From assembly GCF_963675165.1 (NCBI RefSeq), contig NC_087377.1:13450198-13514197 (forward strand): DNA of 64,000 nt. The letters run 5' to 3'. Numbering within the stretch: position 1 is the stretch's first letter; each line of letters begins with the position of its first letter. The translations under genes were made by a program, and so were the position numbers. This DNA is from Halichondria panicea. Its lineage: Eukaryota; Porifera; Demospongiae; Suberitida; Halichondriidae. The notes below the pieces were generated by a model. That model was not told the origin of the DNA, made no database searches, and saw only the letters and a program-made list of their open reading frames with translations. Shown here piece after piece: positions 2,407 to 51,405 of the stretch.

Positions 2407-5398
2407 ATGCAAGTACACACAGTTCTTATTATCAGCATACAGCTGTTTTCTCTTGCTGCAGGTAAGTTAAAATACATATATGCATGTGTTCACTGGAACA
2501 CACAATTTTTCTCAGCCACACTGACATCTAACTTCTACGTGGCTTGTCCTGATGACACTGTCACCTTCACTTGCACTCTGCCTGGGAGTAGTTTTATTCA
2601 ATGGGCAATCATGCAAGGAAATGTTATAAGCACTATAACTTTAGATGCCTCATCAAGAGACAGGAATGAAGGTGCATTCCGTGGTGTTCTCACTGACACA
2701 AGTGGAGGAATGCTCACTGCCACTCTCACCTCACTGTCTGAGGCCTCCACTGTGGAGGGTACCATGGTGGAGTGTGTGGGAGTGAGCTCACGAGAGGGTC
2801 CTCTCACTATCACTGTGGCTGGTGAGTTTTTTGTTTGTAACATAACATTGTAGAATAAGTAATTAATACACCCACGTGCAGATCCACCCTCCCCTCCACT
2901 CAACCCAAGAGTATCCTCTACTCTAAACCAACTCAGTTCCACTATTATCACTCTGGACTGGGACCCTCCCTCCTCCACTGGTGGTGTGTCTGTCAACTAT
3001 GTCCTCATCATCTCCCCAACACCTCTCTCCGTGTCACCAGTCACCGTGGAGACCACCTCAGCACAGATAAATGTTTCCTACAACACTCCCTACAATGTGA
3101 CCATTAGAGCTGTCAACTGTGTTGGAATGAGTCAAGAGAGTTTAATTGAGGATCTGGGTAAGCCATTTCATGGTCATATACAAAAATAATGTACTTTTAA
3201 TGCAGTGGTGTGCCCTACTCCATCTACTGCTACTGGTGTGACTATCACCAACACACCTCCGGTCACTATTGGTGGATCCATGCTCACCTTCACTTGCAGT
3301 GGAGACAATGAAGTGAGAACCTCAACCTGTGGCAGTAGTGGATGGTTTCCTGACCCTGGATGTAGCAGTCCAGTTACAGGTATCATACATGGGCAATTAA
3401 CTCTCTAAAAGGAATGTTGATCTCATGCATTAGATCCCCTAGTCACCTGTGGCTTTCCTGATGCACCATCCAGAGGTATTGTGGACATTAGTGGTGGGAC
3501 ACCACCCTTCTCACTGGGTTCACAGGTCATCTATCGCTGTGACAATGGACTGTTCCCCTTTGATGTGAGGACCAGCACATGCACTGATGTGGAGGATAGG
3601 GGAGAGTGGGTGGAGAATCCTGGGAGCTTGGTGTGCAGGGAGACACCAAGTATAGTCTACATTCATTTTCTGTTCATTTTTGCCGTGTATAATTATAGCT
3701 ATTATATACAGTGAACGGACTGCACTGTACCTACTGCATGTTAGTGCTGTACCATCCAATACTACTATATAGTACCAAATGCATGTGTAACAACGGCTGG
3801 TGCTACAGTATAATTTTAGTATACCCTACATTTCACCACAGTCAACTGCTCTCTACCTGAGGAGCCCTCCAACGGAACTATATTGAACTATAAGAGGTTG
3901 AATGAGACAGTGTTGGAGGGAACAGTGCTGACTTACCAGTGTGACAATGGATCCTCACTGACTGGACCCAACATCATCACTTGCACTAATGCTGGAGTCT
4001 GGAGCAATGAGCCTGAGGCAATAATGTGTGTGTCACCAACTGAAGGTGAGGGTTATTAACCTGAGGCACATAGGCAACCATGGGAGTTACGAGTTACGGT
4101 AATCCCTATAGGTTTGTTGTCTGTGTTTTTAAGTCTGCTCATCTGGTTGCCATAGCGCCTTCGTTTACAGTACGGATAGCCTCAACGTAACAAGTTATAA
4201 TTAGTGGCATGCATGTTGTGACCTTGATTGAAAGCAAGCAAAAAAAGCTAAGAAGGTATACAATATGGATATGGAATTATAGTCACAAGTCGTACATGAT
4301 TGTGTATACGGAGTCATGCAGCCATGTGGAGCCTTATTTTTCACGGGAAGAATTCTTTGCTGGCTCTAGATCTACTGTGAGCCTATACTCTGGTCCCATG
4401 CACTGCATGTCAGGTGCCCTATATATACATGTACTTGCTCTAGGCCTCGATTTTTGCTAGCTGTGATCCTAACGGTCCGGGACTCCCATTGCATTTTCAG
4501 GGTTTATTTCAGTGTGCTAGTCTTAGCGGGTGATATTTCACCTGCTTAAAATGTTCTGTCACCCATTTGGAGCATGTAAATTGTGTACCTATCAACCCTC
4601 AATTGCAATTAAATTTCCTACTTAGTAACTTGTAACAACAATGTGATTATCCCTAACAATAATTATGTTTGCTTAGACAATCAGTAACCACAATGATGTT
4701 ACATCATGTAGCTGGTACATTGTATACCCGAGTAATCATTGTGAATTTCTCCTTTGGCGACCAGCCACCCAGGAGTCAGGAGTCAGGGGGCTAATGCCCC
4801 GGCCCATGTTTTGTCCCTGAAATTTGGCTGGGGAAGTTGGCACCTATGCAAATGGCTCATCCGCCAAATATTTATTTTAATTATTTGTATAATTATTTTA
4901 TTACTTGTTTTGCGAGCGAGGATCAATAATTATAAAGAACTCAAAACCTAAATTAGACCTAGTACTGGTAATTATCCTTGATAGAACGCAATAGTTAGAT
5001 CGTATGAGGTCAATTTTTCTGCTGATTTGGTTCACCCCAAAATATTCTAGTAACAGTACAACACAGTGTATACTCTAGGTGTGGTATACAACTGCCTCAG
5101 GCTTCTATCTCAATATTAATTTTATTGCCAATCCTCCACAGCTGCCACCCTATCAACTGGTGTAACTCTTGCCATCAGTGTTACTACTACTTTCGTTGCG
5201 TCTACTATCCTTGGATTTCTCGCTGGACTCCTAGTGATGTATTGGTTCAGGCGTAAGAAGGCAGTGTACTACACAAGAAAAACAGCATTATCTGTTATAG
5301 AACCCACTAAACCAGTTGAACCTGTTTATGAGGAGGTGTCACCCAAAGAGGAGATTGAACTGAACACTAACCAGGCGTACGGACCATTAGGACGGTGA
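2407..5398 (+). CDS. gene A: Ig-FN3-CCP3 transmembrane receptor, type I
   Basis: Seven exons join in frame to 495 aa: 2407-2461, 2516-2821, 2882-3157, 3206-3379, 3434-3649, 3842-4045 and 5142-5398. All introns are phase 1 with GT-AG ends. Exon 1 is a signal peptide (MQVHTVLIISIQLFSLAA). Exon 2 is an Ig-like domain (CPDDTVTFTC, W, VECVG). Exon 3 is an FN3 domain (LDWDPPSSTGG, YNVTIRAVNC). Exons 4-6 are CCP domains. Exon 7 has the membrane helix (TTFVASTILGFLAGLLVMYW), a basic stop-transfer RRKK and a tail with VYEEV and NQAYGPLG. The first CCP lacks the GTFDC segment found in E and reads DPGCSSPVTG. The last residue is Arg where other copies have Leu. The protein probably sits in the plasma membrane; ligand and function are unknown. 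AATAAA follows the stop by about 220 bases. Confidence 0.9.
4901..5053. mobile_element. MITE with TTACTAGAATATTTTG ends, in intron 6 of gene A
   Basis: The right end is the inverted form of TTACTAGAATATTTTG and the left end is a diverged TTACTTGTTTTGCGAG. Related copies are at 13408-13618, about 44200-44345 and 50906-51051. All share an internal AGTTAGATCG...GTCAATTTTTCTGCTGATTTGG core or a recognisable version of it. Confidence 0.7.
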
Positions 5399-10700: not shown

Positions 10701-10835
10701 TTACCACTAGATCTACCACATGCCGTATATATCTAATGTACTGACTGCATACTCACCAGCCTCAGGAGCTCCTCGTGATGGTCTCCCAGCTCCCTCCAGG
10801 TTGGTCGTCCAGAGCAACTCTTCATCATCCCACTG
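7764..10835 (-). pseudogene. HEAT-repeat gene, copy 1 (decayed)
   Basis: Separate minus-strand exons can be recognised by comparison with the other copies. 7764-7876 reads NALVVQSAGVDCLTSLCQLL up to a GTGAGT donor. About 8020-8095 reads VFAKLLGEKVFKRHLEL. About 9775-9890 reads DELFFANLKDSIPSVRQG and continues AAAALTSVTKAY. About 10757-10835 reads WRELGDHHEELLRL. The leucine/alanine-rich helical pattern with VRQGAAAAL is typical of HEAT repeats; I do not recognise the specific protein. The 9.8 kb exon has TGA where copy 3 has TGG and lacks three residues (PPF) present there. The stretch 9000-9180 keeps a long open frame (FEMMHRIHDD) whose relation to the gene is unclear. It is convergent with receptor A. 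Probably not functional. Confidence 0.6.
9589..9674. repeat. pair of adjacent inverted repeats
   Basis: CAGTCAGCT (9589-9597) pairs with AGCTGACTG (9610-9618) around a TA tract. Then a 22-base arm (9621-9642) pairs with 9653-9674 with two mismatches. The equivalent places in copies 3 and 4 (about 24460 and 54710) have only one arm. Confidence 0.7.
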
Positions 10836-13735: not shown

Positions 13736-14850
13736 ATGACACTAATAGAGATAAAGCTCATTAGAGTTCTTCTAATTTGCTTTCTGGCTGGCTTCAGCAC
13801 TGGTAAGACTGACTGTTCAATTATAGATTTCCTTACATTGCTGCATGTTTCATAAAGCACAATATTCAGTGAGTGTGGAGAGACCATGTCCAATGGAAAC
13901 AGTCACTTTCACTTGCACTGCTCCTGGAGATTCTTTGAGAGGGGAACTGTCAGATGATCCTCGCATCACTGTCCGTACTACTACCTCTCCTCTCAATGTA
14001 CCCATGGTTCTAACAGATTACACGTGGACACTGATCGCATTTGATAACAATACATTAACATCTACTCTGACAAGAACAGCAAAGATTGAGAATGAGATCA
14101 CTGTGTCCTGTGGGGTTACAATGCCTCCTCTAACCACTATAGGATCTTCAACAATTCAATTGATTGGTGAGTAAAAGTGTCACTTGATGTCTCGTCCATT
14201 GATGTATGGTAAAACATGTAGATCCACCAGGATCACCTTCTACCATAAGACACTCCATTGCAAGTAGCTTAGCCTATGAAGTTAATGTGACTGTTGGTTG
14301 GGACCCTCCTACTGAGACTGGTGGTAGAGATGACCTCACCTACACAGTGACCGTCTCACCTCCAGCCCAGCTCTCTGCTAATGTTCTCACATCCGCCTCT
14401 GTCACTGTGACTGCTCAATACAATGTGGACTACACTGTCAGTGTTGTGGCTATCAATTGTGCTGGGAACAGTACGACTACTGAGTACAACTTTAGGATTG
14501 GTGAGTATTATTATTTGGACACAAATTGTCAACTCAGCTAGATCCTTCTCAGGTAACTGTCCTGTGTTGACCGACCCCATGAATGGAGCCTTTGGACCAG
14601 TCTCCAGCAGATTACCAGGATCCACAGTAAACATCCAGTGTGATGCTGGGTATGTATCTGCTGTTACGACGGTAACATGTGAGGATACACTGATGTGGAG
14701 TCCAGACCCTGAGGCTATTGAGTGTACATCACTAACCACACCTACTCCCACAACTCGTGAGTTATAAGCTTTTGGTTATTATATAGTTATGCCTCGGTGT
14801 GTGCATGCGAAAGCGAGCTAGGTATAAGGTAGTGTGTTTGTATGTCTGCA

Positions 14851-14882
<32 letters not shown>

Positions 14883-15687
14883 GTGTATACAGCTGCTCAA
14901 TGCTAAATGAAGTGAAAGTAAGAGTTTTTATATAGGCATGTTTCTTGGATTCTTGCAATTAGTGGATTTACAAATGAATGCTTGGTTCTCGAGTTATGCC
15001 TAATTTTGCTTACTTGAAGGCTGTTGCAGACGCGTTAGAATTCTATGTAGCAAAGCCTATAGATATAACTTACTTAGTTTGCACTAGAACGCTAGCTATA
15101 TATAGTGTACGTAGCTACAAATGGATAATTAATGCAATCTCTATACACAGCCCCTCCAATGAACTGCACAGCTCCACTACTCTCACCACGAAATAGCACC
15201 ATCAGTGATCATTCAGTATCATCTATTCCCGGTACACAAGTGACCTTCCAGTGTGATGATGAACTGTTCCCTGAGGGGATAATGACTGTTACCTGTCTAG
15301 CTACAGGAAAGTGGGACAAAAATCCAGAGGAGATCGTCTGCAGAGGCAATTTTAAGTGTATTCAGTAATGTTTTTTCACACTTCTCTCTTGAACCACCTA
15401 CAGCTGCTCCTTGTAATTGTGCCAGCCTATCTGATGGGAGTCGATTTGATGAAGCTGTCTCCATCAGTGTGGTTGTCACGGCAGTTCTATTCATAATCAT
15501 TGGATTGTTGATGGGACTCTTGATCATGTTTTTGCTCATGCGTAAGAAGGCAGTGTACTCCCCAGCAGCTAAAGAGCAAGCTAACGTAGGACCCACTGTA
15601 CCAGCTTGTCCTGTTTATGAAGAAGTGTCACGCAAAGAGGAGATGGAACTGAACACTAACCAAGCGTATGGACCATTAGGACTGTAA
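13736..15687 (+). CDS. gene B: Ig-FN3-CCP2 transmembrane receptor, type II
   Basis: Six exons join in frame to 445 aa: 13736-13802, 13858-14166, 14222-14500, 14553-14756, 15151-15345 and 15404-15687. They encode a signal peptide (LIRVLLICFLAGFSTG), an Ig-like domain, FN3 (WDPPTETGGRDDLTYTV), two CCP domains, a membrane helix (VVVTAVLFIIIGLLMGLLIM) and a tail with KKAVYS, VYEEV and NQAYGPLGL. Three oddities stand out. The Ig exon has Gly (SLRGEL) where D has the core Trp (SLRWEA). It lacks the third CCP exon of C and D. Keeping frame from exon 5 to 6 requires a GC-AG intron (AGAG then GCAATT at 15346), because the nearby GTAATG would be phase 2. Probably a functional gene, with some doubt from these changes. 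Confidence 0.85.
14788..15080. repeat. dispersed repeat with GT microsatellite in intron 4 of gene B
   Basis: TATGCCTCG...(GT)n...CAGCTG...TTCTCGAGTTATG recurs at about 47340-47600 and 60700-61050 (there TATGCCTCGAGGCGTAGCCG). The pure GT run is about 14853-14882. Confidence 0.6.
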
Positions 15688-20998: not shown

Positions 20999-23097
20999 AT
21001 GATGACACATGCTGAGACTAGATCTATTTGGGTTTTAGTGGTTGGTAAGTCACTGTTTATAACTTGCATGCCAGTTGCTGTACAGTAACTAGTCTATCGT
21101 TTTGCTAGAAAGTTTCATGTTAGTGTCATGCATGCTTGCTCTCTTCACTATACAGGTGTACCATTGGTGTTTGGTAGTCTGACTCGTGACTACACTGAGA
21201 CGCCCTGTGTTGGGGATGTGATATCCGTCACGTGCACAGTGCCTGGAGTTTCCTTGGATTGGGACGTGCCTGATCCAACTAGGAATATACGAATTATTGC
21301 GTCAACCGAACCATTCCAACGAGATCAGTACTCAGTCACATTAGTGATACTCAACTCCACTAGTTCAATAATCACCTCCAGTTTGAGTTTCCCTGCAGCT
21401 GATGCGATCACTATTGGATGTTTTCCTATACTACAACCGGAGTTGAGGGAAGAACTCATCATACTGACAGCTAGTGAGTCTATTAGCCTGGGCTTTTTAC
21501 AATGCCATAAACCTCTTACTTTACAGCTACTCCTTTACCACCGACTGGATTCAGTGACTTAATTCTGAGCAGCTCAGCCATTGAAGTCAGTGTATCTGTG
21601 CAGTGGGACCCTCCTACTGAGACTGGTGGTAGAGATGACCTCACCTACACAGTGACCATCTCACCTCCGGCCCAGCTCTCTGTTACTGTCCTCACATCCA
21701 CCTCTGTCACTGTGACTGCCCAATACAATGTGGACTACACTGTCAGTGTTGTCGCTACCAACTGTGCTGGGAACAGTACAACAGCTGAATACAACTTTAC
21801 GATTGGTGAGTCAATATGGTCTTTATAAATAGCACACTATATTATTATACTGACCCCCTCTTATGCAGGTGGCTGTCCTGTGTTGACTGACCCCATGAAT
21901 GGAGTGTTTGGACCAGCCTCCAGCAGATTACCAGGATCCACAGTAACCATCCAATGTGATGCTGGATATGTATCTGCTGTTACAATGGTGACATGTGCGG
22001 ATGCACTGATTTGGAGTGCCGACCCTGAGGCTATTGAGTGTATATCACTACCCACACTCCCTCCCACAACTCGTGAGTTGAGTTCTTGATTTTACAAAAA
22101 CTTATTTGTTCACCTCACATGCAGCTCCAATGAACTGCACAGCTCCACTATCCTCACCACAGAATGGTACTATCAGTGATCATTCAGTACCAGCTATTCC
22201 CGGTACACAAGTGACCTTCCAGTGTGACGATGGACTGTTCCCTGAGAGGATAATGACTGCCACCTGTCTAGCTACAGGAGAATGGGACAAGATCCCGGGG
22301 AAGATCGTCTGCAGAAATGAGTCTAGTAAGCTATACCTGCATGGTTTATGGTTCGGTGTACTCAGATCAAAAGTTCGAATTACTAAAATTCAAATGAGCG
22401 TATAATTATAATGTTCAATTTTTACATCAATCATATTCCTTGTACCCAGTTTCCTGTGTTCTGCCTGCTCCTCCACTTAATGGAGCATTACTCACTAACT
22501 GTCAGAACACTAACCTAGTCGAGGGCTCAGTCATTACCTTCCAATGTGATCCTGGGTTTTCACTGGTGGGTGAAGCAACTGTCACTTGTAACAACTCTGG
22601 TCTGTGGGATCCCGACCCGGCTCTATTGGAATGTGTATCTAGAAGTTGTACGTACACACAAGTATACTATAATCATATAATTATATAAGCTGATACAAGA
22701 ACACACTTTTAGTAAAAATGAATAGCTATAATCATAGTCTTACTCTTGTGATGCACGCCCTCCCATTGTTTATTGGAACTCTCTATACATATATTTTTCG
22801 CTCTAAAAATGTTGCCTCCTCCCATGCACAGTTCAATCACCCATCCTATTTACCGGAGAGGTTCTTTCTATCAGTGTGGTTGTCACTGCAGTTGCTTTCA
22901 CAGTCATTGGATTCCTCACTGGACTCCTAGTGATGCACCTTTGCTCTCGTAAGAAGGCAGTGTACTCTCTAGCAACTGAAGGACAAGCTAACGTAGGACC
23001 CACTGCACCAGTTGGTCCTGTTTATGAGGAGGTGTCACCACCCAAAGAGGAGATTGAACTGAACACTAACCAGGCGTATGGACCAGTAGGACTGTGA
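20999..23097 (+). CDS. gene C: Ig-FN3-CCP3 transmembrane receptor, type II
   Basis: Seven exons join in frame to 503 aa: 20999-21044, 21156-21473, 21527-21805, 21869-22072, 22125-22325, 22450-22647 and 22832-23097. The start ATG at 20999 is chosen because the ATG four bases earlier runs into TGA. The signal peptide crosses the first junction (SIWVLVV then GVPLVF). Next are an Ig-like domain (CVGDVISVTCTVPG, LDWDV, GCFP), FN3, three CCPs, a membrane helix (VVVTAVAFTVIGFLTGLLVM) and a tail with KKAVYS, VYEEV and NQAYGPVGL. All introns are phase 1. The Ig domain is the most diverged in the array, while FN3 and CCP1 are almost the same as in B and D. The third CCP carries DPDPALLEC. Confidence 0.88.
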
Positions 23098-32949: not shown

Positions 32950-33042
32950 AATAGATCTAACTTTATCACAGGTAGAGCATGTTTTTTGGATTAACGTTAA
33001 CATTATGTCATTGCAAAACATGTAGACTAGACCATGTATAGT

Positions 33043-33600
33043 CTATATTTGACAGGTCTCTTGAAGTGTCGAGTTGTCTATAGGGGAAAAATATAAAAAT
33101 ATAAAGCTGCAAAAGTGAACCAGTATCCTCTTATAGGTAACGACATCGCCACACGTTCTGCTAGTAATGTTCTGCTTTTCTAGCGCCAACAGATCAACTG
33201 TAAGTGGATGAATAATTTGCCATGTTTGACTCAAGAGGGCGAGAAATATTTACGAATTGAACGCTTAAGAATGCAGGATTGTTGTTATTAGTGATATTGC
33301 TAAGAAAAATTTGCCAAGAAGTATCCACAAGAATTTCGAAGATGTTCACATATTCGGTAGAGTTAGGGCTACTGTAATGCCAACGTAATCCTACGAGATC
33401 CACTCCTTCACAGATCAGCTTCACTCTATAGCCTTTTCCGAGCAAGCCTCACTTTTGACATTTAGGTACACTTCTGATGCTGTGCCAAATTTAATACGTG
33501 CGGTAAATAAACTAGCTGGCTGCACAAATGTACTTACCTTCGACAAAAAGAACAGTAGAAATTACTCAGAGAGAAGTAAAAAACATTATCATGGCAGTAG
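33043..33600 (-). pseudogene. dead tandem copy of gene G (Ig exon)
   Basis: Minus frame 33194-33445 reads VKLICEGVDLVGLRWHYSS and continues to SVQFVNISRPLES, matching the Ig exon of gene G. A 2-base deletion near 33210 (TCATCC-ACTTACAG against TCATCGGTGCTTACTG in G) shifts the frame; the other frame resumes TVDLLALEKQNITSRTCGD. A damaged signal-peptide exon with an in-frame stop precedes it near 33545-33590. No tail exons follow because gene G starts to the left. Confidence 0.75.
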
Positions 33601-34408: not shown

Positions 34409-35984
34409 TGGCTACATCAGTCTTCAACGGTCAGAACAGACCCAACTACGGCGACAGTGACCACTGTGGCAGCGGGAATGACTACAACATCCCCATCGGG
34501 ATCGGGAGCAGCAACAGCCACTATGCTGCTGCAGACGTTGGTCACTAATGCTGTGGAGGCAGCAATAGCGACGGCCCTCCCAAGGGTTGTGGCCTCTCTG
34601 GACTGATTGCTGGTAGAACTATCCCCACAATGGTCCCCACAACGGTCCCAGCAGGACCAATAGCAGGTGGGTACCCTTCTACCAGTAGCTAGGACCCCAC
34701 TCTCCATTCTTACGAATGTGATCCTTTGCTCAGGTTCTAGTTAAGGGCCAGTAGGTAGAAGCAATAGGGCAAAGGGCAGGGGCCACAGAATGCAGCAAGT
34801 ATCATAGGTACAGGTCGGATACACCTCAAAAGCAGGAGGGCAAAGGCAGGCTTTGTGTGTAGCTTTGTGTGTATGTCAACAGGGTTATTCGACCATTATA
34901 ATTCGACCAAGAGTCATAATAATAGCAGAGGGCGAAGGTGCAAAGAAAGGCTTTGTGTAGGTGGGGTGCATATGAAGGGTCAGACGACCAAACGGCAGAA
35001 GGCAAGGGTAGCTTTGTGTGTATATTAAGGGTTATACGACCAAAGACCAATGGCAGAAGGCGTTGGGTGTATCAAGGTCATACGACCAAGGGCGGTTTAT
35101 GGCATGGCAGAAATCAGGGCGGTCGACCAAGGTCAAAGCAAGGGTCAGGGTGAGTTGTAGGGATACCCAGGGTCTAACCCACAGCAGGCAGAGGGAGGCT
35201 TGGCGAGCTACCGACAGCTCGTTCACTGGCTCACCTGAGAGAGGCAATAGCAGATCGAGGTCAGCGAGCCGCCAAGCGTAGGGCCAGTGCGGTCATCACC
35301 ATGCAGCATCGGTGCTAAGCATTTAGCACACCCCCAAAGAGCTCGACAGTCAACTGCTTAATAGCACCTGGGCTACCAGCAATGAAACGATGGCTGCTGG
35401 AAAGCATATTGGCAAATGAATGCATCGACCTAACTGAGTTGCCTCCAGAAAAAGGGCGCAGCAAAGTAATGCCAAACTCGTTGGAGGGGCAAGATACTTT
35501 TGCTGCACGAAACAGACTTCCAGCAGACTAAACAGCTAATACCAGACATTAACACTTGGATACAGTGTTTCTCTGTGTACACGGCTATTGTGGTACACTA
35601 TTTCCCCGAAAGAGCAACATCAATGCTAATGTACACAGCCTCCATGGGCAAACTGAGCCAGAAGTTCAGGTGGCCATCCTGGGTTATATATGACCAGGCA
35701 TACCGCCAAGAAGCAGCTGAATCTGGCAAAGTGGACTTGTCGCGGGTAGATGCCAGCATACATGCTCAGTGCTTCAATGGAATGGCCAGAAGTACGGAAG
35801 GTTGGTGCTCCGACTGCCACTCCCTGGACCACATCTCAGAGTCATGTCCTTGGAGACCACCAAGCAAGAGGCTGTCTGTATCGACTCCCACAAATGTAGG
35901 TTTAGCCATGTGTGCAGCAAGTGCCGGGGAACTCACCCAGTAACGGCCTGTCTCAAGCCGGGAGAACACTCGGTAAGACCCTGA
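34409..35984 (+). pseudogene. gag-like region of the YR retrotransposon
   Basis: A Thr/Ala-rich frame ends near 34605 (TTATVTTVAAGM, AAIATALPRVVASLD). After a low-complexity, GC-rich stretch, the frame 35500-35943 encodes a helical domain ending in a zinc-knuckle-like CSDCHSLDHISESC (CX2CX4HX4C). A shifted frame (to 35984) carries a second C/H cluster, HVCSKCRGTHPVTAC. Two such clusters at the C-terminus fit gag proteins of DIRS/Ngaro elements. At least one shift separates the clusters. Confidence 0.6.
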
Positions 35985-36329
35985 CTGGGGTGCCTAAGAC
36001 AAACAACTGAACTCCTCTCTATATTAACCATGCTGCTGAGGCGGGGTGACAGTGTTGCAACTGTATGATTTATCACTTATGTCATTAGGTTGGTGTGTAC
36101 GTGTGTGCTATTGACGTTTGGTTAAAAAGCAACGTTTTGTTTCAGATAATTATTGGACGCATGCGCGTGGGAGGCAGAGCTAAACAGTATACTCGATGGA
36201 TAACTGCGCTATTATTTATCGTTACATTACTGGTATAGGTATAGAGTGTTAATGTAGTTGACAGCAATCTAGCAGGCAGAAAGCATGCATAAGTCAATAC
36301 TCCACTATAGTGTGATATAATTAAAGGGG

Positions 36330-38001
36330 TTGACATTTTCTCTTGATCACAAAGGGGCGAGCAGATACCCGTACATGAAGCAACTGCAAGCACTAGCAGC
36401 CTGTCGACCGAGCAGGCCTCCAAACATACCAAGGCATCTGCAAGAGATCATAACGCCGTTAAAATTCTCGGCCTGGGAACAAGAACTCAAAAACCACCCA
36501 GATGACCGATTTGCCCAGTACGTACTATCAAGCATAAAAGACGGTTTTCGAATCAGCTTCGATTACAGGTCAAATGCCCTATCAAATTGCAAGGGGAACA
36601 TGGCGTCAGCGCTGGGACACCCGGAGGTGATAGACTCGTACCTTCAAAAGGAACTGGAGCAGGGTCGCATGAGTGTCTTGTCAAGTACAGACCTGACCAC
36701 AGTGGGATGCCACATTAGCTCATTCAGGGTAATCCCTAAGAAGTCAAAGCTGGGCTCATAGAGGCTTATCGTTAACCTGTCAGCACCATACGGGTGCAGT
36801 GTAAACGATGGTATTTGCAAGGAACTCTCCAGCCTAACCTACGTGTCAGTGGACGAGGTCGTGGATTGTTTGCTGACATTGGGAAGAGGGGCTCAGATGG
36901 CTAAGATAAACATCAGACAGGCTTATCGTAATGTGCCCATACACCCAGAGGACCAACCCCTACTCAGAGTGAACTGGAAAGAGACGATCCTATGGGATAA
37001 CGTATTAACGTTCGGGATGCGGTCAGCTCCTCCGATCTTCACAGCCGTGGCAGATGCACTGCAATGGATCATGCAACAGAGGGGAGCCGGACCGCTATTC
37101 CATTACCTAGATGATTATATCACGCTAGACCCGCCAGGACAGGACGGCTGTGCGAACAACCTCGCAATAATCAGGCAGGTTTGCAGAGACACAGGGACAC
37201 CGGTGGAAGAAGACAAGTCCGTACGGTAGGCCCAACAACTACCATCACCTTCCTTGGTATATTGAATTGGAGTTAACTATCCGCTTCCCAGAAGACAAGC
37301 TAAAAAACCTTAGAAAGATACTGAAAACATGGAGGGGTCACAAAGCTGATAAAAAAAGAGAATTGCTGTCTCTGATCGGATCACTCCAGCATGCATCAAA
37401 AGCAGTTTGCCAAGGAAGGAGTTCCTTCGCAGGCTGATTGATTTGTCTATGGCCAGGAAAGGTTTAAACGACGACATACGACATAAACAAATCAGCCCAA
37501 TCAGACATTCGCTGGTGGTGCGAAATGGAACGTCCATGTTATGCAGGTTTGACAGATTGAACCCTACTATCTGGGCCACTTCAGACGCATCAGGGAATTG
37601 GGGCTGTGGCGCATATGCATGGGGAAGAAGCCTGGTTTCAATTTCAATGGCCGCCTACGCCTAGCATGCTGAGGTGTCACATCACCATCAAGGAATTGAT
37701 CTCCGTTGTCTTTGCAGCAGCAGTGTGGGGACACTTGTGGGAGGGGAAGTCAGTACGATTTCGCTGTGATAATGTGGCAGTAGTGGCAATCCTCAGATCA
37801 GGGACGAGTAAAGATGAACTCATTATGCACGTCATGCGATGTTTGGCATTTATCACAGCTCGTTTTAACTTTGTAGTCTCCGCCTCCCACATCAGGGGAG
37901 TAGACAATACAGATGCACTTTCAAGGGACAATGCTATCCTATTTCATTCTCTCCACCCACAGGCTCTACCCCAGGCAACCCCTATACCCCTCCCGCATTA
38001 G
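36330..38001 (+). pseudogene. reverse transcriptase-RNase H of the YR retrotransposon
   Basis: The frame 36330-37229 has RT motifs INIRQAYRNVPIHPEDQPLL, FGMRSAPPIFTAVADAL and HYLDDY. It is interrupted by TAG at 36759-36761 just before RLIVNLSAP, where related proteins usually have Trp. A shift near 37225 leads to TTTITFLGI, another to a frame reading KRELLSLIGSLQHASKAV (37280-37436), another at about 37407 (FLRRLIDLSMARKG, WATSDASGNWGCGAY), and another to the RNase H end (37606-38001: ITIKELISVVFAAAVWG, FRCDNVAVV, LSRDNAILF). At least five lesions, so no active product. Confidence 0.85.
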
Positions 38002-39026
38002 TGGAGCTGCTCTTAATTGCTAGCCAAACCAGACTGGGCATCGCAGCATTGGACCAGGCTGTGGAGTTCTATTTTCGAAATTCGTTAGCTCCATTCACCC
38101 AACGAACTTATGCTGCAGCTCAACTTTGTTACAGTAATTTTTGTAGCCTATATAGTTTTGCACCTCTCCCAGTTTATGAATATCAGTTATGTCAATATGT
38201 GTCATTTTTGTCAGGAAGTGGTATTTCGCATGAGTCCATTAAATGTTACTTGTCGGATTGCACAAGACATGCCAGACCCCAAAATAAGCTCAATGCCTAA
38301 GCTTGAGGGGGTGATTAGAGGCATCAGAACTTACCAATTGAAGCATGCGAATAAGCAACCTAAGATTCGGTTGCCCATTACTCCGGAAATCTAGCTGAAG
38401 TTGCGGGCAATCTGGGAATATGATAAGTCAAACTCCGACCATATCATGATATGGGCAGCTTGCTGTGTGGCGTTCTTCGGCTTTTTTCGGTCGGGGGAAA
38501 TCACTGTCCCTTCAGACGCAGGGTACGATTCGGCGGTCCATATGAATTTAGCAGACGTGTCGATAGACAGCTTGTCCAACCCCTCCATCCTAAAACTACG
38601 TCTGAAGTATCGAAGACAGACCCCCTTCGAAAAGGGGTAGATATTGTGTTGAGGCGAGCCGAAGGTCCGCTCTGTCCAATAGCAGCACTCTTGTCTTACC
38701 TAGCTATTCGGGGACAAAACCCGGGGTTTTTGTTCAGGTTTGCGGATGGTCGCCTATTGTCAAAAACTCGGTTCATGGATACAGTCCAGGAGGCTATGAC
38801 AAAAGCTGGGCTGCAGGCCAAAGACTATGCAGGGCACTCGTTTCGTATAGGTGCAGCAACGACAGCTGGGGCACGCGGGGTCCCTGACTCAACCATAAAA
38901 ATGTTGGGTAGATGGGAGAGTTCAGTGTACCTGTTGTGCATTCGGACTCCCAGGGATCACTTAGCTTCAATTTCGGCAGTCCCCCGTGAATGTCAATCGA
39001 TACGAAAAAAGTGGACAGTGGACTAA
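38001..39026 (+). pseudogene. tyrosine recombinase of the YR retrotransposon
   Basis: The N-terminal SAM-like part reads FTQRTYAAAQLCYSNFCSLY (38001-38300). A shifted frame follows with a TAG at 38392-38394, then FFGFFRSGEITVPSDA (38401-38640), which carries the first catalytic Arg region (FRSGE). After another shift, 38640-39026 has GHSFRIGAATTAGA (the HxxR box) and LGRWESSVYLLCIR (the nucleophile Tyr region; other members read YIR where this has LLCIR). Family-typical R...HxxR...Y is therefore visible but split over three frames. Confidence 0.82.
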
Positions 39027-40015: not shown

Positions 40016-43000
40016 ATGACATTAGAGATATTAAAATTAAAGCTCATTGGAGTTCTTCTGATTTGCTTTCTGGCTGGCTTCAGCACTGGTAAGACTAACT
40101 AGATCTATTTATATATACTCTTTACTTTTTTCCTACTTTGTAAAGCCCAGTATTCAGTGAGTGTGGAGAGACCATGTCCAATGGAAACAGTCACTTTCAC
40201 CTGCACTGCTCCTGGAGATTCCTTGAGATGGGAGGCACCAGGTATACAGACAATCACTATCCGCTCTACGTCTGGTCTCAATATACCAGTAATGCAGTCA
40301 GGTTACACTGTAACACTAACTGCATTCAATGACAGTACATTAACATCTACTCTATCAAGAACAGTTGAGAACGGGATCACTGTGTCCTGTGAGTATGCAC
40401 TGCCTGTTCTAACCACTGTAGGATCTTCAACCATCATTTTGGCTGGTGAGTATCTCAACCATTCACTAGAAGTAAAATACCAACCAATGTACTGGTCGTA
40501 GATACACCAGACCCACCTTCCAATGTCAGACAATCCGTTCTGAGCAGCTCAGCAGATGAAGTTAGGGTATATGTGCAGTGGGACCCTCCTACTGAGACTG
40601 GTGGTAGAGATGACCTCACCTACACAGTGACCGTCTCATCACCGGTCCAACTCTCTGCTACTGTCCTCACATCTACCTCTGTCACTGTGATTGCTCAATA
40701 CAATGTGGACTACACTGTCAGTGTTGTGGCTACCAACTGTGCTGGGAGCAGTACAACCACTGACTACAACTTTACAATCGGTGAGTCCGACGTATATATA
40801 ATTATAGTCTTTATACCCCGTTGCTATAATTTTTACTGTTGCTATGTGCAATATATGCAGCATATTGTGCACTGTATCTCATATTCTGCACTGACCACAA
40901 AGCCTTGAGGGATTTAATGATATGCATGGCAAAAAATTAAATGTCGCGCAGCATGCACAGGACAGTAAAAATAAGGTTTGTCCAGTTCTTTACTGTCTGC
41001 TTGAACGATCAGAGTTGGGAGTGGTTTTTTTCAGCAGAGTTTGAAGTGGGGGCTGCTTGAGTTGCTCTGTATGTAGCCTCGATCCCAGGCCGAGTTTTCG
41101 CTTTTATAACGGTTAGGCGAACAACTGGGCCTGGTACTAGTTGTCTGCGCATGCGTCAAATTTTCATTGTATTTGTGGTCGGCAAAAATATTTGAAATGA
41201 AAAATGCACAGAGTGAGTGCACAAAAGTGCACATAGGGAGCTGCTTCACAAAGGCCAGTTGCCAGTTGTGCTGCAGCACGATTACAGTGACCCAGGGCAA
41301 CTTCAGGATGATTGAATGCCTTCAAATTACGTTTCAAAAAGATTTAGCAGGCTGCTGGACTTCTCTGATTCTAGCCAACTCGTGACTCAATTAAATTTTG
41401 CTTGAGAAGACGTAGATTCTCTTCATGCCTCTGAGATACCCAGTAACGCTCGAACGAGCAGGTCATACTCCAGTCCTGTGAGTATAGGACAATATTAAAA
41501 GAAACCAAAGACGGTTAAACCCTTACCTCAAACTGTCCAGTCTCGTCCGTTAGTATAGCCAAGAGGAGCACTGTTGGGATAGCTGGATAGTAGCCATTGC
41601 TCCTGTACAGAGAAGTTGACATTCTAAATACGTGTAGATCTATATAAATATTAAATTTCTCGTATTAAACAGGTTATAGTGCCATTGTCAACAAGCTGAT
41701 GATGGCAGCACCAAGTTCTCTAGCTCACACTCTTCACTTGATCCACCATATTATTAAGGTTATTAAGATTATCTGATTAAACTATATATAGTCTACCTAG
41801 ATCTTGCCAAACATGAACAAGACTTGATAGCATAGGGCACACAAAAATATCTGACCTTAATAAGCTTGACAAAGCTTTATACCTCTTCCCTTGTTGTTCA
41901 GTCTTCAGAATAATGTTTTCTAAGCTTCAGAGAAGACAGAAGCTTCAGCTAAGAGCCATTCCAATCGATTCCAATAATGATAAAACGGGAACTGACTTCG
42001 TACACGATAGTACACGAATATAAATGTCACAAAAGTGAACGAGAATACACTAATAGCCAGAAATGGGCTAATTGGTTGACGCATGCGCAGACAACTAGTA
42101 CCAGGCCCAGTTGTTCGCCTAACCGTTATAAAAGCGAAAACTCGGCCTGGGATCGAGGCTACTCTGCATGCAGCTTTGCCTGTTTTGCAGCAGCAGCGTT
42201 GAGAAGAGAGTGTTTTTGCAGCGTTCAGGGGGTGGGGCTGCTTTACTTTTGTCTAGCATCGAGCGAGCGAGGAGCCCAACGTTTTGTGAGTCAAGCCATT
42301 TGTCGTGCCAATGATAGCTAATCTTGAATGGTGAGATACCGGTGTCTTTGAACAGAGATGCAAGCAGCTGGGAACAGTAATTTTTGTAGAAGCTGTGGTG
42401 TATTTTGTGTTGCTAGAGATATATAAACTAGTTATAACACATGCACTCGGGATGCAATATTGCACTCAGCCCTCAGGGCTGGCGCCCTTGTGCTTCAGTG
42501 CAATACACACCATACAATCCCTCGTGCCTATGTTATAACTATTACTTAAACAGCACACTATTGCCTCCCTCTCGTGTAGGTGGCTGTCCTGTGTTGACCA
42601 ATCCCACGAATGGAGCGTTTGGACCAACCACCAGCAGATTACCAGGATCAACAGTAACCACCCAGTGTGACGCTGGGTATGTGTCTGCTATTGCTATGGT
42701 GACATGCGAGGGTACACTAATGTGGAGTCCAGACCCCGATATTGAGTGTATGCTAACCACACCTTCTCCCACACCTTGTAAGTTTTTTGGTTGTGCATGT
42801 GGATGAAATTTAATTTTTAATCTTCCAGCTCCTACAATGAACTGCAGAGCTCCACTATCCCCACCGTGGAATGGCAGTGTCAGTGATCATTCAGTACCAG
42901 CTATTCCCGGTGCTCGTGTGACCTTCCAGTGTGACGCTGGACTGTTCCCTGAGGGCATAATGACTGCCACCTGTCTTGCTACAGGAGAGTGGGACAAGAA

Positions 43001-43661
43001 TCCAGGAGAGATCGTTTGCAGAATTGAGTCTAGTAAGTTAGTACTTCATTATTCATGTGCATCCTCCATCTCTTGTGCTCAGTTTCCTGTGTCCTGCCTG
43101 CCCGTCCATTCAATGGAGTGTTACTCAACACCAACTGTCAGAACACTAACCTAGCCGAGGGCTCAGTCATTACCTTCCAATGTGATCCTGGGTTCTCACT
43201 AGTGGGTGAAGCGACTGCCACTTGTAACAACTCCGGTCTCTGGGATCCTGACCCGGCTCTATGGGAGTGTTGTACGTACGCATATGAGTATACTCTGATT
43301 GTGATATATAATTGCCTAAGTATATAAATTATACAGGCTTCAGTTAGTGCGCTCTATTTGTTGCCCTAATAATTATTGTCAATCTTTCACAGCTCCGACT
43401 GCTACCACCACCCTATCAACTGGTGTAACTGTTGCCATCGGTGTTACTACTACTTTCGTTGTGTCTACTATCCTTGGATTTCTCGCTGGACTCCTAGTGA
43501 TGTACTCATTCACGCGTAAGAAGGCAGTGTACTACACAAGAAAAACAGCATTATCTGTTATAGAACCCACTAAACCAGTTGGTCCTGTTTATGAGGAGGT
43601 GTCACCCAAAGAGGAGATTGAACTCAATACTAACCAGGCATACGGACCAGTCGGACTGTGA
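40016..43661 (+). CDS. gene D: Ig-FN3-CCP3 transmembrane receptor, type II ectodomain with type I tail
   Basis: Seven exons join in frame to 503 aa: 40016-40088, 40146-40445, 40502-40780, 42580-42777, 42829-43032, 43083-43271 and 43393-43661. All introns are phase 1. They encode a signal peptide (LIGVLLICFLAGFSTG), an Ig-like domain with intact Cys-Trp-Cys (FTCTAPGDSLRWEA, TVSCEYA), FN3 (WDPPTETGGRDDLTYTV), three CCPs, a membrane helix (TTFVVSTILGFLAGLLVMYS) and a tail with KKAVYYTRK, VYEEV and NQAYGPVGL. The ectodomain is closest to B and C, but the last exon is nearly the same as in A and E. Intron 3 (1.8 kb against about 50-60 bases in B and C) holds the 1088-bp Mutator-like insertion. Confidence 0.9.
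41074..42161 (-). mobile_element. Pack-MULE-like element, copy 1 (intron 3 of gene D)
   Basis: TIRs of about 85 bases begin TAGCCTCGATCCCAGGCCGA and end with the inverse. The 9-base flanks are CTCTGTATG (41065-41073) and CTCTGCATG (42162-42170), one mismatch. Long TIRs and a 9-bp duplication are typical of Mutator-like elements. No MuDR transposase is present. Inside, on the minus strand, two exons with proper splice sites make an open frame (listed separately). Copy 2 is at 62461-63540 in the opposite orientation. Confidence 0.85.
41371..41602 (-). CDS. host-like exons carried inside the Mutator-like element
   Basis: Minus strand: an exon at 41527-41602 follows a strong acceptor (CTTCTCTGTACAG) and reads NGYYPAIPTVLLLAILTDE, then TGQFE and a GTAAGG donor. 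An exon at 41371-41475 follows CTCACAG, reads DWSMTCSFERYWVSQRHEEN, then LRLLKQNLIESRVG and stops at TAG. The junction is phase 0 and both exons are open. In copy 2 the first exon has a TAA and the second ends early at TGA, so this copy is the better preserved. I do not recognise the parent gene. The exons look like the 3-prime end of a captured cellular gene; whether they are expressed is unknown. Confidence 0.55.
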
Positions 43662-45304: not shown

Positions 45305-45308
45305 TTGC

Positions 45309-46559
45309 AGCCATTCAGTTGACATCCAGCAGTGGTGATGGTGCGGCATGTCCAAATGACCCTGTTGTCTTCACCTGCTCTGTTAGTGGAACTGTTCTAT
45401 AATGGATAGCTGATCCTCCACCTGGCTATGTCGTATCTGGGCAGGTGAGACAACTTTTATTCTCTATTTCTGGTACTTTACTGCCTGCTGGAGTTGAAGC
45501 CTGCACTAGTAGGATCAACACTAAGCTTCACGTGCATGCAATGAAGAGACGGTACCAGCAAGAGTAATGGACGATGGTTACCTGACCCCACCAGATATAA
45601 CTGTCCCTCAGGTTAAGTAGATCACTTTCATGACTGTTACTATCTGCCCCCTTCCTTAGAGGTCACCTGTGGGCCTCCTGTCGCACCTTCCAGAGGCAGT
45701 GTGGACGTTAAGGGCCAGACATCACCCTTTTTGATGGACTCAGTGATAAACTTTCGTTGTGACACGGGACTTTTCCAGCTGGTGATATGTCCAGTACATG
45801 TGACAGTGTAGGAGGAGTGGGAAGTTGGAGACCAGACACTAATATCATTTGCAGAGACATACCTGGTGAGCATACCGTTAACTAATAATATTATTTGCAG
45901 AGACATACCTGGTGAGCGTACCGTTAACTAATAATATTATTTGCAGAGACATACCTGGTGAGCATACCGTTAACTATAGTATAATTATAGTTATGTTGCA
46001 TTTCACCACAGTCAACTGCTCTCTACCCAAGAAACCATCCAACGGTATTATTATTGTGGACTATGTGCTGTTGAACGAGACAGTATTGGAGGGAACAGTG
46101 CTGACTTACCAGTGTGACAATGGACTCTCACTGACTGGACCCAACAACGTCACTTGCACCAATGCTGGAGTCTGGAGCACTGAGCCTGAGGCAATCATGT
46201 GTGTGTCACCAACTGAAGGTGAAGGCAATCATGTGTGTACTTGAATGTGAGTTATGGTTTGTAATCTCATATAATACCTCGATTTTACAGGTCCTACTGC
46301 CACCTCCCTATCCATTGGTGTAGTTGCTGCTATCAGGGTAATTATTACTTTCTTTGTTGCTGCCATTCTTGGATTCCTCACTGGACTCCAAGTGATGCAT
46401 GTTTTCTCTCGTAAGAAGGCGGTGTACTTCCCGGCAACTGAAGGACAAGCTAACGTAGGACCCACTGCACAGCCAGCTGGTCCGGTTTATGAGGAGGTGT
46501 CACCTAAAGAGGAGATGAAACTAAACACTAACCAGGCGTATGGACCAGTGGGACTGTGA
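45309..46559 (+). pseudogene. gene F: broken type I receptor with B/C-type tail
   Basis: The Ig exon (from 45310, IQLTSSSGDGAACPNDPVV, FTCSVSG) has TAA just before WIA. A CCP fragment (about 45500-45612) and a second CCP (45661-45871; VTCGPPVAPSRGSVDV, INFRCDTGLF) are frameshifted. The third CCP exon (46012-46218; NCSLPKKPSNG, YQCDNGLSLTGPN) and the last exon (46291-46559) are intact and in frame with each other. No signal-peptide exon was found. The tail (KKAVYFPATEGQANVGPT, VYEEV, NQAYGPVGL) resembles B and C although the CCPs are type I. A 46-base triplication lies between the damaged and intact halves. Dead as a full receptor; a shorter membrane product is conceivable. Confidence 0.8.
45841..45980. 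repeat. 46-bp unit repeated three times, each with splice-like borders
   Basis: GCAGAGACATACCTGGTGAG recurs at 45851, 45897 and 45943, exactly 46 bases apart. Each copy has an acceptor-like ATTATTTGCAG and a donor-like GTGAGC around 11 exon-like bases. Confidence 0.85.
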
Positions 46560-47089: not shown

Positions 47090-47290
47090 TGTTGCTGTGT
47101 GTCCCACACCATATCATGTGTTTTAACCACATCACCAACACACCTCCTGTCACGATTCATGGATCAATGCAATGCTCACTTTCAGTTACTTGCCATGGAG
47201 ACAGGAATGAAGAACCTCGGCAGTATAGTGGGTGGTCCCATAACACTGGGACTTTTGATTCACTGCTATACATTATCATCTATTCATCTC
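47090..47290 (+). pseudogene. isolated relic of a type I first CCP exon
   Basis: GTGTGTCCCACACC...ATCACCAACACACCTCCTGTCACG...TGGATCAATGC matches exon 4 of genes A and E (NTPPVTI, GGSM, then GWS-like and GTFD-like pieces) with several indels. No neighbouring receptor exons remain. It lies just before the copy 2 segment. Confidence 0.7.
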
Positions 47291-47338: not shown

Positions 47339-47373
<35 letters not shown>

Positions 47374-48450: not shown

Positions 48451-51405
48451 ATGCAAGTACAGACAGTTATTATTATCAGCATCCAGCTGTTTTCTCTTGC
48501 TGCAGGTAAGTTATAATACATATAGAACTGATCTGTACATGCATATATAAATTATGTTCACTGGAACACACAATTGTTTCAGCCACATTGACCACCATCC
48601 CCACTGTGGCCTGTCCTGGTGACACTGTTACCTTCACCTGTACTCTGCCTGGTACTCTCATACGATGGGACGTCACTCCACCACAAGGTGCCCGATTCAG
48701 TATATCTTTAAGGACCAGCAACACTGATGAGACACGAGCTAATCCAGCATTCCGAGGTGTTCTCACTGACTCCAATGGAGCAATGCTCACTGCCACTCTC
48801 ACCTCACTGTCTGAGGCCTCCACTGTGGAAGGTACTATGGTGGAGTGTGTGGGAGTGAGCTCACGAGAGGGTCCTCTCACTATCACTGTGGCTGGTGAGT
48901 TTTTTGTTTGTAACATAACAGCTAGTGCCGACAAGTATCATACACCCACAGATCCACCCTCTCCTCCACTCAATGCAAGAGTATCCTCCACTTTAAATCA
49001 ACCCAGCTCCTCTAATATCACTCTGTACTGGGACCCTCCCTCCTTTACTGGTGGTGTGTCTGTCAGCTATGTCCTCACTATCTCCCCAACACCTCTCTCC
49101 AAGTCACCAGTCACCGTGGAGACTACCTCAGCACAGATAACTGTCTCCTACAACACACCCTACAATGTGACTATCAGAGCTATCAACTGTGTTGGAATGA
49201 GTGAAAGTTCAATTGTGGATATGAGTAAGCTAATGTACTCCTTCATACAACATTGACGTACTAGCAGTAGCTCCTTTTCTGTAAAACAGTTGTGTGCCCC
49301 ACACTGTCTACTGCTGCTGGTGTGACCATCACCAACACACCTCCTGTCACTATTGGTGGATCCATGCTCACCTTCACTTGTAGTGGAGACAGTGAAGTGA
49401 TAACCTCAACCTGTGGCAGTAGTGGGTGGTCTCCTGACCCTGGGACCTTTGACTGTGGCACCCCAGTTACAGGTATCATACATGCATGGGCAATTAACTC
49501 TCTAAAAGGAATGTTGATCTCATACATTAGATCCCCCAGTCACCTGTGGCTCCCCAGCTGTACCATCTAGAGGTAGTGTGGACATCAGTGGTGGGACACC
49601 ACCCTTCTCACTGGGTTCAGAGGTCATCTATCGCTGTGATGAGGGACTGTTCCCCCCTGATGTGAGGACCAGTACATGCACTGATGTGGAGGGTAGGGGA
49701 GAGTGGGTGGAGAATCCTAGGAGCTTGGTGTGCAGGGAGAGGCCAGGTATAGTCTACATCAATTTTTCTGTTCATTTTTGCTGTGTCTATAAGTAAACGT
49801 ACTGCACTGTACCTGTCATACCACCGGTGCTATATAGTATATCCTATGTACGTTGCATTTCACCACAGTCAACTGCTCTTTACCCTCGGAGCCATCCAAC
49901 GGAACTATAGTGGACTATGAGAGGTTGAATGAGACAGTGTTTGAGGGAACAGTGCTGACTTACCAGTGTGGCAATGGATTCTCACTGACTAGACCCAACA
50001 CCATCACTTGCACTAATGCTGGAGTCTGGAGCACTGAGCCTGAGGCAATAATGTGTGTGTCACCAACTGAAGGTGAGGGTTATTAACCTGAGGCACATAG
50101 GCAACCATGGGAGTTACGAGTTACGGTAATCCCTAGGTTTGTTGTCTGTGTTTTTAAGTCTGCTCATCTGGTTGCCATAGCGCCTTTATTTACAGTACGG
50201 ATAGCCTCAACGTAACAAGTTATAATTAGTGGCATGCATGTTGTGACCTTGATTGAAAGCAAGCAAGAAGGTGTATACAATATGTGGCTAAATGTGGCTT
50301 TAATTTGAGGCACGCCATTATTTACTTATTTTTCACAGGAAGAATTCTTTGCTGGCTCTACTGTGAGCCTATACTCTGGTCCTATGCATTGCATGTCAGG
50401 TGCCCTATATATACATGTACTTGTATAACACTCTAGGCCTCGATTTTTGCTAGCTGTGATCCTAATGGTCCGGGACTCCCATTCATTTTCAGGGTTTATT
50501 TCAGCGTGCTAGTCTTAGCGGGTGATATTTCACCTGCTTAAAATGTTCTGTCACCCATTTGGAGCATGTAAATTTTGTACCTATCATCCCTCAATTGCAA
50601 TTAAATTTCCTATTTAGTAACTTGTAACAACAATGTGCATTATCCCTAACAATGTGTTTGCTTAGTCACAATCAGTAACCACGATGATGTTACATCATGT
50701 AGCTGGTACATTGTATATCCGAGTAATCATTGTGAATTTCTCCTTTAGTGGCGGCCAGCCACTCAGGAGTCAGGAGTCAGGGGCTAATGCCCCCAGCCCA
50801 TGTTTTGTCCCTGAAATTTGGCTGGGGAAGTTGGCACCTATGCAAATGGCTCATCCGCCAAATATTTATTCTAGTTAAACATTAATTATTTGTATAATTA
50901 TTTTATTACTTGTTTTGCCAGCGAGGATCAATAATTATAAAAACCTAAATTAGATCTAGTACTGGTAATTATCCTTGCTAGAACACAATTAGTTAGATCG
51001 CAAGAGGTCAATTTTTCTGCTGATTTGGTTCACCCCAAAATATTCTAGTAACAGTACAACACAGTGTATACTCTGGGTGTGGTATACAACTGCCTCAGGC
51101 TTCTATCTCAATATTAATTTTATTGCCAATCCTTCACAGCTCCGACTGCTGCCACCCTATCAACTGGTGTAACTCTTGCCATCAGTGTTACTAGTACTTT
51201 CGTTGCATCTACTATCCTTGGATTTCTCGCTGGACTCCTAGTGATGTACTCATTCACGCGTAAGAAGGCAGTGTACTTCACAAGAAAAACAGCATTATCT
51301 GTTGTAGAACCCACTAAACCAGTTGAACCTGTTTATGAGGAGGTGTCACCCAAAGAGGAGATTGAACTGAACACTAACCAGGCGTATGGACCATTAGGAC
51401 TGTGA
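48451..51405 (+). CDS. gene E: Ig-FN3-CCP3 transmembrane receptor, type I
   Basis: Seven exons join in frame to 502 aa: 48451-48505, 48583-48894, 48952-49224, 49290-49472, 49531-49746, 49869-50072 and 51140-51405. All introns are phase 1. They encode a signal peptide (VIIISIQLFSLAA), an Ig-like domain with Cys-Trp-Cys (CPGDTVTFTCTLPGTLIRWD, VECVG), FN3 (LYWDPPSFTGG), three CCPs, a membrane helix (STFVASTILGFLAGLLVMYS) and a tail with KKAVYFTRK, VYEEV and NQAYGPLGL. It is the close duplicate of A but with an intact GTFDC in the first CCP and a normal Leu terminus. The Ig exon is the most changed exon between the two copies (for example LIRWDVTPPQGA here against FIQWAIMQGN in A). AATAAA at 51635. 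Confidence 0.92.
50906..51051. mobile_element. TTACTAG-family MITE in intron 6 of gene E
   Basis: Same insertion as 4901-5053 in the duplicated segment. Confidence 0.7.

Follow-up and report, generated by a model that had tools for sequence, protein, structure and literature searches.

Which receptors sponges use for self/non-self discrimination is a long-standing question, and a 2025 review describes the mechanisms of invertebrate allorecognition as a complete mystery (PMC12065747; all papers are cited here for the parts covered). The window analyzed here, a stretch of 64,000 nucleotides from the sponge Halichondria panicea (C1:13450198-13514197, in a genome of 131.5 Mb and 39 contigs), carries a tandem array of genes for receptors in which an N-terminal immunoglobulin-like (Ig) domain, a fibronectin type III (FN3) domain and complement control protein (CCP, or Sushi) domains precede a single transmembrane (TM) helix and a cytoplasmic tail with tyrosine motifs. 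Is this array part of a recognition complex, and if so, of which kind? In our judgment it probably belongs to a megabase-scale cluster of single-pass recognition receptors with exchangeable recognition and signalling exons, found so far in Halichondria only, and it provides a candidate with a defined map position in a species that has been kept in aquaria for experimental work (PMC8242945).

The receptor array and its extent

Five spliceable open reading frames (ORFs), modeled from the DNA, lie head to tail on the + strand and are called A, B, C, E and G; P-numbers denote database proteins related to the window genes, of which 75 were listed.

2407..5398, + strand: gene A, spliced model of 495 aa with a type I ectodomain; exons 2407-2461 (signal peptide), 2516-2821 (Ig), 2882-3157 (FN3), 3206-3379, 3434-3649 and 3842-4045 (CCP) and 5142-5398 (TM plus tail)
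13736..15687, + strand: gene B, 445 aa, type II; signal peptide, Ig, FN3, two CCP and TM/tail exon 15404-15687
20999..23097, + strand: gene C, 503 aa, type II FN3/CCP backbone, a third kind of Ig at 21156-21473, TM/tail exon 22832-23097
40016..43661, + strand: gene E (LOC135348714), 503 aa, type II ectodomain, A/G-type TM/tail exon 43393-43661
48451..51405, + strand: gene G (P0036), 502 aa, type I, segmental duplicate of A

The five genes share the order signal peptide, Ig, FN3, two or three CCP domains and TM plus tail, with one exon per domain and phase-1 introns, and a hydrophobic N-terminus and a membrane helix are present in 5/5. An earlier sequence-only reading had proposed five full-length head-to-tail paralogs, each with a signal peptide, an ectodomain, one membrane helix and a tail, and the spliced models bear this out, with the proviso that gene B needs a GC donor. 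The genes divide, however, into two ectodomain subfamilies, type I (A, G) and type II (B, C, E), with yet another Ig in C. Splice sites were picked to be phase 1 throughout, which makes the common phase partly our own choice; the pattern is borne out independently because E and G equal the NCBI models P0001 and P0036. Gene E is identical to P0001/LOC135348714 over 503 residues (100%), by which a model spliced from DNA alone is checked, and G agrees with P0036 over its full length; A and G are 89% identical across 5.5 kb. No exact match to A or C was found among the 75 listed proteins (best 82% and 71%), the first exon is the least certain part of the gene C model, and the large intron 3 of gene E contains repeated DNA. 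The gene B model requires a GC donor at 15345 (a GC-AG intron): the NCBI protein P0021 equals gene B at 99.7% over 352 residues and then stops where this donor is assumed, at a point where the paralogues P0012 and P0014 run on into TM plus tail, and gene B is thus either a truncated secreted form or spliced from a non-canonical donor.

When A, B, C and E were scanned with Pfam, each of the four matched Sushi, and each had a sub-threshold fn3 score (15.1-24.7 bits against a cut-off of 25); no Ig model was matched in these genes, and the Ig call rests on the fold. The N-terminal domain was modeled separately because the VIA-align list for the full model held mostly FN3 pairs, and its predicted fold is that of a V-set domain, with a V-type beta sandwich, the B-F disulphide and the C-strand Trp. 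Variation between copies is located on the GFCC' face and the C'-D edge of this domain, the ABDE sheet being conserved. The earlier proposal of a diverging Ig above conserved membrane-proximal parts is only partly correct: the Ig evolves fast and dN decreases from the Ig to the CCPs, yet variability at the TM/tail exon, of which there are several kinds, is equally high or higher. Two cysteines of gene E beyond the canonical Ig pair, C35 in the Ig and C204 in FN3, are kept in 90% or more of the 31 copies aligned and may bridge the two domains.

The same reading had confined the array to 50 kb. The tandem array is real, but it runs far beyond that span: a 2.8-Mb interval of a single contig contains 145 tail exons or more. 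A search of the whole genome with the TM/tail exon gave 306 candidates, and all of the 150 that were scored match (E 5.5e-51 to 2.9e-21), 147 of them without an internal stop; 149 lie on C1, where at least 145 fall within 11.2-14.0 Mb, 122 of them on the + strand. This count of exons, not proven genes, is a lower bound with respect to the 306 candidates, and may be inflated by recent block duplications or unmerged haplotypes. Neighbouring tail exons on C1 share a strand in 124/144 cases, compared with about 106 by chance, at a median spacing of 7.4 kb. For the gene E Ig exon, scoring 150 of the 188 candidates gave at least 133 matches, 132 on C1 and one on C32, of which some are parts of a single exon. 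The pattern N[QK]AYG has 295 occurrences in the genome and its reversed control 18. The arrangement within the cluster can be seen in the 40 kb at C1 11.82-11.86 Mb, where eight tail exons stand head to tail, types I and II are mixed and several copies are broken.

The only one of the 150 scored tail exons outside C1, at C7:3600062-3600316, is 75% identical and is possibly a founder or an escapee. Equal tail- or Ig-exon scores were obtained near C1 11.80 and 12.04 Mb, and again at 11.79 and 13.22 Mb, which suggests recent large duplications or unmerged haplotypes within the cluster. Separate dense arrays with a longer, P0018-like tail (YEEVGLA...NEAYG...NQAY) lie at C1:16502770-16567942 and 14631233-14754402, and other FN3-rich tandem clusters are found at C3 6.68-6.72, C4 4.38-4.43, C6 7.25, C7 5.01, C8 6.57-6.66 and C11 0.73 Mb.

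Tails and the apparent exchange of exons

Tails were compared as 72 distinct C-termini (95 rows), over the last 62 residues; this set does not cover the long Death-type tails described below, and its counts omit 8/60 proteins (read-through ORFs and non-sponge hits) as well as loci with an early frame stop. Seven of the 72 are not of the tyrosine (Tyr) type. YEEV occurs in 65/72, NxxY in 65/72 and NQAYGP in 62/72, and exactly 13 residues separate the YxxV from the YxxL/V motif in 59/72 (YEEV...NQAYGP). The two tyrosine motifs of the sequence-only reading are real, but their spacing, usually 13, is not that of an immunoreceptor tyrosine-based activation motif (ITAM; YxxL/I-x6-12-YxxL/I), and its term "ITAM-like" is not supported, with 0/72 C-termini matching even when V is allowed. 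The hemITAM was also rejected (0/72), the inhibition motif (ITIM) pattern appears in 2/72, and readings of the tail as a switch motif (ITSM) or NPxY, by simple self-made patterns, were rejected or rare. The sequence pYEE[IV] is a classic Src-SH2 ligand, and NxxY recalls PTB sites. In the membrane helix, a GxxxG-like motif is present in 73/95 rows.

Two further receptors carry related tails. P0057 is a close relative in TM and tail, where the NQAYGP module occurs three times, but its ectodomain consists of I-set Ig and FN3; it is a putative case of a tail exon transferred to a receptor of quite another kind. A different receptor-like gene within the window (30212-33448, - strand), with two related Cys/Trp-bearing exons that have no Pfam match, ends in LYDEV, ELKANESYG and LLKSNQSYG, the same tail grammar as in the main family; no significant similarity was seen between its ectodomain and that of the main family.

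A second type of cytoplasmic part is found in seven listed relatives (P0011, P0013, P0025, P0033, P0034, P0049 and P0056). It combines a Death domain with tyrosine motifs and, in all but P0034, with a proline-rich end resembling SH3 ligands; the P0034 model is cut within the Death domain. Exons of a Death-type gene lie just right of the window (65.8-71.4 kb on the window scale), a copy about 56 kb to its left is presumably that of P0025, and a genome search with the first Death half-exon gave 17 stop-free matches at C1 11.41-13.81 Mb. We built a tree of 29 Ig-FN3 ectodomains, comprising 24 type II ectodomains selected by string rules from 49 proteins considered, plus five regional genes; truncated models, other-record ORFs with read-through and P0056, whose model lacks an Ig, had been set aside beforehand. 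In this tree, in which only 6/26 inner branches are well supported, the six Death rows need five changes, close to the chance expectation, a number as low as this being reached in 154/500 shuffles. A single origin of the Death-tailed genes, as one clade, was rejected (approximately unbiased (AU) test, p 0.0045), and P0011 (Death) groups with P0012 (Tyr) at 100/97 support. Identity between these two falls from 97% in the Ig to 86% in FN3 and 78-79% in the CCPs, as would be expected if an Ig exon had recently been transferred. Closely similar ectodomains are thus shown, in the predicted proteins, on different tails, Death-domain tails included.

The apparent exchange can be followed to the level of single exons in gene E. 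Its ectodomain exons are, as DNA, 78-90% identical to those of B/C and 43-51% to those of A/G, with an Ig that matches B only, whereas its TM/tail exon is 94% identical to A/G and 68-73% to B/C. The tail match between E and A/G ends at the exon edges: in the 150-base flanks, identity over all columns is 38-42%, compared with 87-97% between A and G and 31% for random sequence (95th percentile 41%), and over aligned columns only it is 70-72% upstream and 42-58% downstream. Gene C combines FN3 and CCPs like those of B/E (83-90%) with an Ig just 45-47% identical to the B/E Ig. Within a 204 kb region, 36 exon pairs are at least 88% identical, and both flanks reach 75% or more in 5/36. Exon-limited transfer is indicated by these identities, though it is not the sole process.

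Decayed copies accompany the intact genes, and the tandem birth and death put forward earlier is supported; the broken copies are the remnant at 1-513, gene F and the CCPa piece. The family-related remnants are as follows, the first three located by tblastn with exon queries.

1..513, + strand: upstream copy remnant, with CCPb to about 195 and a CCPc piece at 400-513
45346..46556, + strand: gene F, a broken copy; part of an Ig exon interrupted by a stop (45346-45450), a shortened CCPb (45662-45864), an open CCPc (46008-46217) and an open TM/tail exon (46293-46556)
47131..47259, + strand: orphan CCPa fragment
56675..56871, - strand: degenerate Death-domain exon piece with an in-frame stop (alternative tail type)
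10778..10825, - strand: short Death-domain exon remnant of 16 residues

The ORF at 25342-25557 (- strand) resembles a Death exon but was rejected as one, since it belongs to a distinct repeated element that is shared with an alternative end of P0034. This exon-like piece (VDFYISQ...NHAVREAACICTAELG) recurs on the - strand at 18618-18726, 25414-25518 and 55675-55770 and at several flanking places, several copies lying in 164 kb, and doubles as that alternative end. Between genes C and E, an element with a reverse transcriptase (35319-39023, + strand), which we take to be DIRS-like, has a weak tyrosine-recombinase match (E 0.0011, below cut-off), and a second reverse-transcriptase ORF is present at 877-1377.

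Proposed function and competing readings

The sequence-only reading was right in what it observed and understated it, missing the scale of the cluster, the exchange of modules and the Death-domain tails. A recognition function is likely, and the role is most likely immune or one of self/non-self discrimination; the target may be microbes, self or both. The N-terminal V-set-type Ig, whose GFCC' face and C'-D edge differ between copies, would bind ligand, and the FN3 and CCP domains would hold it off the membrane. A GxxxG-type helix, in most copies, would probably support dimers, and ligand binding would lead to phosphorylation of the conserved tail, in which YEEV would presumably match a Src-family SH2 site, with NQAYGP[LV] matching one of NxxY/SH2 type. 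Germ-line diversification of the repertoire would proceed through tandem duplication, through decay and, in some cases at least, through the single-exon transfer that the exon identities indicate. A more specific proposal, which we regard as tentative and rather unlikely in its entirety, is a convergent germ-line combinatorial complex, independent of those of cnidarians and chordates, in which well over 100 V-set receptors would share one multi-megabase cluster and exon-sized gene conversion would carry recognition exons between phosphotyrosine- and Death-tailed receptors, yielding haplotype-specific "bind and spare" and "bind and kill" pairs for self/non-self discrimination.

Several observations weigh against a diversified recognition cluster with exchangeable exons. 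No Ig match with an E below 0.001 was obtained from Foldseek on its own, the five Ig models span pLDDT (predicted local distance difference test) values from 91 to 49, and V domains are abundant in the PDB, which favours V-type matches. Every domain has a mean dN/dS under 1 (0.61 for the Ig), and positive selection on whole domains, looked for by dN/dS, is not found; single pairs reach 1.07-1.19 in FN3 and CCPc (few pairs). On the variable face, estimated from 7/13 Ig exons with C and type I excluded, dN/dS rises but stays under or near 1, and its bootstrap ranges are broad (0.63-1.09 and 0.50-2.30), compared with 0.15-0.59 for the rest. Mean entropy in type II is higher for the Ig (0.81) than for FN3 and the CCPs (0.56-0.74) but lower than for the stalk/TM (1.44) and tail (1.10), which exceed the Ig because several kinds of tail are mixed. 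Pfam support for the Death domain is weak (six proteins hit at E 5.6e-5 to 8e-3, 3/6 above cut-off), and both flanks fall below 60% in only 5/36 of the similar exon pairs, three of the five involving gene E.

Two alternatives are narrower forms of the recognition reading. In the first, which is quite possible though short of probable, the cluster would be a germ-line repertoire for microbes or their products, analogous to the scavenger receptors (SRCRs) of sponges or to the CEACAM/TREM-type families of vertebrates. Death-domain tails fit outputs of cell-death or NF-kB type and would suit such a role. In H. panicea, moreover, most putative pattern-recognition receptors are expressed in an individual-specific manner, and Sushi- and Ig-domain genes are among those responding to lipopolysaccharide, although the parts of that study covered here do not single out an Ig-FN3-CCP family (PMC8242945).

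In the second, which we consider unlikely, the genes would be allorecognition determinants like Hydractinia Alr, with individual-specific V-set faces binding in trans and deciding the fusion or rejection of sponge tissue. The genomic layout is of the same kind, with 40 Alr and Alr-like genes on one chromosome in Hydractinia (PMC11876637). Evidence on variation comes from 14 proteins of other records that we compared with the listed RefSeq proteins, six of them also searched against the reference genome; a second H. panicea individual has been assembled in short scaffolds (PMC8994243), from which these proteins may derive. Four of the six have top reference matches of only 74-84% (P0043 74%, P0037 77%, P0042 80%, P0065 84%; shorter parts up to 88%), which fits gene-content variation without proving it. 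The two parts of P0032, however, match gene E at 94% and 92% identity, and P0030 was rejected as evidence of another individual, being 100% identical to the reference at C1:13393535-13394746 and therefore silent on polymorphism; some copies are thus shared, and the other-record proteins may not be of the same species or population.

Ordinary adhesion receptors, expanded in tandem without selection for recognition diversity, are a distinctly doubtful account of the cluster: the Ig-FN3 pair resembles NCAM Ig5-FN1 (3mtr, Foldseek E 3.8e-8) and mean dN/dS is below 1, but Ig variation on one face and the exchange of tails are unexpected from neutral expansion alone. That the proteins are membrane complement regulators, as database names say (membrane cofactor protein-like, complement receptor-like), is very improbable; the CCP part does match CR1, CD46, CD55 and beta-2-glycoprotein I in sequence and fold, yet those regulators consist of CCP chains and lack the N-terminal V-set and FN3, and the names probably follow the Sushi match only. 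An assembly artefact, with unmerged haplotypes or mis-joined repeats inflating the copy number, could explain why distant places (e.g., near 11.80 and 12.04 Mb) score identically, as recent blocks would too, and is hardly credible given 72 distinct C-termini and adjoining copies, at the spacing given above, on one 18-Mb contig.

Relation to known recognition systems

Searches with the whole protein (60 hits), the TM/tail (40) and a 31-row profile (73) gave no named relative with the Ig-FN3-CCP architecture outside Halichondria, and none of their hits is named as a protein of a cnidarian, Botryllus or Hydractinia; the searches need shared 5-residue words, and remote kin may escape them. The named hits outside Halichondria are single Sushi proteins of amphioxus, shark and bird, and three others are FN3 proteins. 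As the sequence-only reading had supposed, no sponge system of this kind has been described among the literature titles listed. Nor were Alr, FcoR or aggregation-factor structures among the fold matches listed, which excludes nothing. Allorecognition candidate proteins are not conserved across sponges, cnidarians and ascidians (PMC12065747).

Several systems share part of this organization. Vertebrate paired receptors (CEACAM, LILR, TREM) likewise place very similar ectodomains on different tails (PMC3533184, PMC5112662) in small gene clusters (PMC2803305), and the sponge family shows this combination within one cluster in P0011/P0012, the AU test and the Death exons in the interval; paired receptors give opposite signals through ITIM versus ITAM or adaptor, whereas the alternatives in the sponge are a two-tyrosine tail and a Death-domain tail. 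The SRCR and cytokine-receptor-like repertoires of H. panicea also form a large putative recognition set, with Sushi and FN3 in SRCR proteins, in a transcriptome-based study that in the parts covered does not describe such a cluster (PMC8242945). In contrast to that repertoire, no SRCR domain was found in the proteins scanned. Sponge aggregation factors carry Calx-beta/Wreath domains, and neither was found up to E = 1 when Pfam was run on genes A, B, C and E, which gave Sushi, fn3 and weak other matches.

The Alr ectodomain consists of Ig-like domains only. Membership in the Alr family is not supported: the Ig-FN3-CCP order, with FN3 and CCP exons in 5/5 window genes, profile matches to CCP proteins and no hit named as cnidarian speak for convergence. 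The likeness lies in the tandem clustering of paralogous type I membrane proteins of the IgSF in a non-bilaterian (40 Alr/Alr-like genes; PMC11876637) and in tyrosine signalling motifs, which in Alr are ITIM/ITAM (PMC12065747). Polymorphism and homophilic binding are reported for Alr.

The FcoR/fester receptors at the fuhc locus of Botryllus are the nearer architectural analogue. They combine a V-type Ig and Sushi in the ectodomain of a single-pass protein with, in FcoR, a tyrosine tail, and they form tens of clustered loci (53 for FcoR) whose ectodomains are coupled to different signalling motifs (PMC12065747). The sponge genes likewise have a predicted V-type Ig, Sushi, a single TM and tyrosine motifs in the tail. 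FcoR differs in its two C2-type Ig domains, canonical ITIM/hemITAM and occasional SH2 domains, and the sponge family in its FN3 between Ig and Sushi, two to three CCPs, Death-domain tails and lack of hemITAM (0/72); gene-content variation, a feature of Botryllus (PMC12065747), is only hinted at in the sponge. By the features tested in the predicted proteins, the closest analogues are Botryllus FcoR/fester and Hydractinia Alr, by apparent convergence, and the family appears to be a member of neither. Collectively, the locus is a strong candidate for self/non-self or microbe recognition in one of the oldest animal lineages; it suggests a repeated origin of V-set clusters with tyrosine tails, and the presence of similar V-set exons on both Tyr and Death tails would link recognition to outcome in a novel manner.
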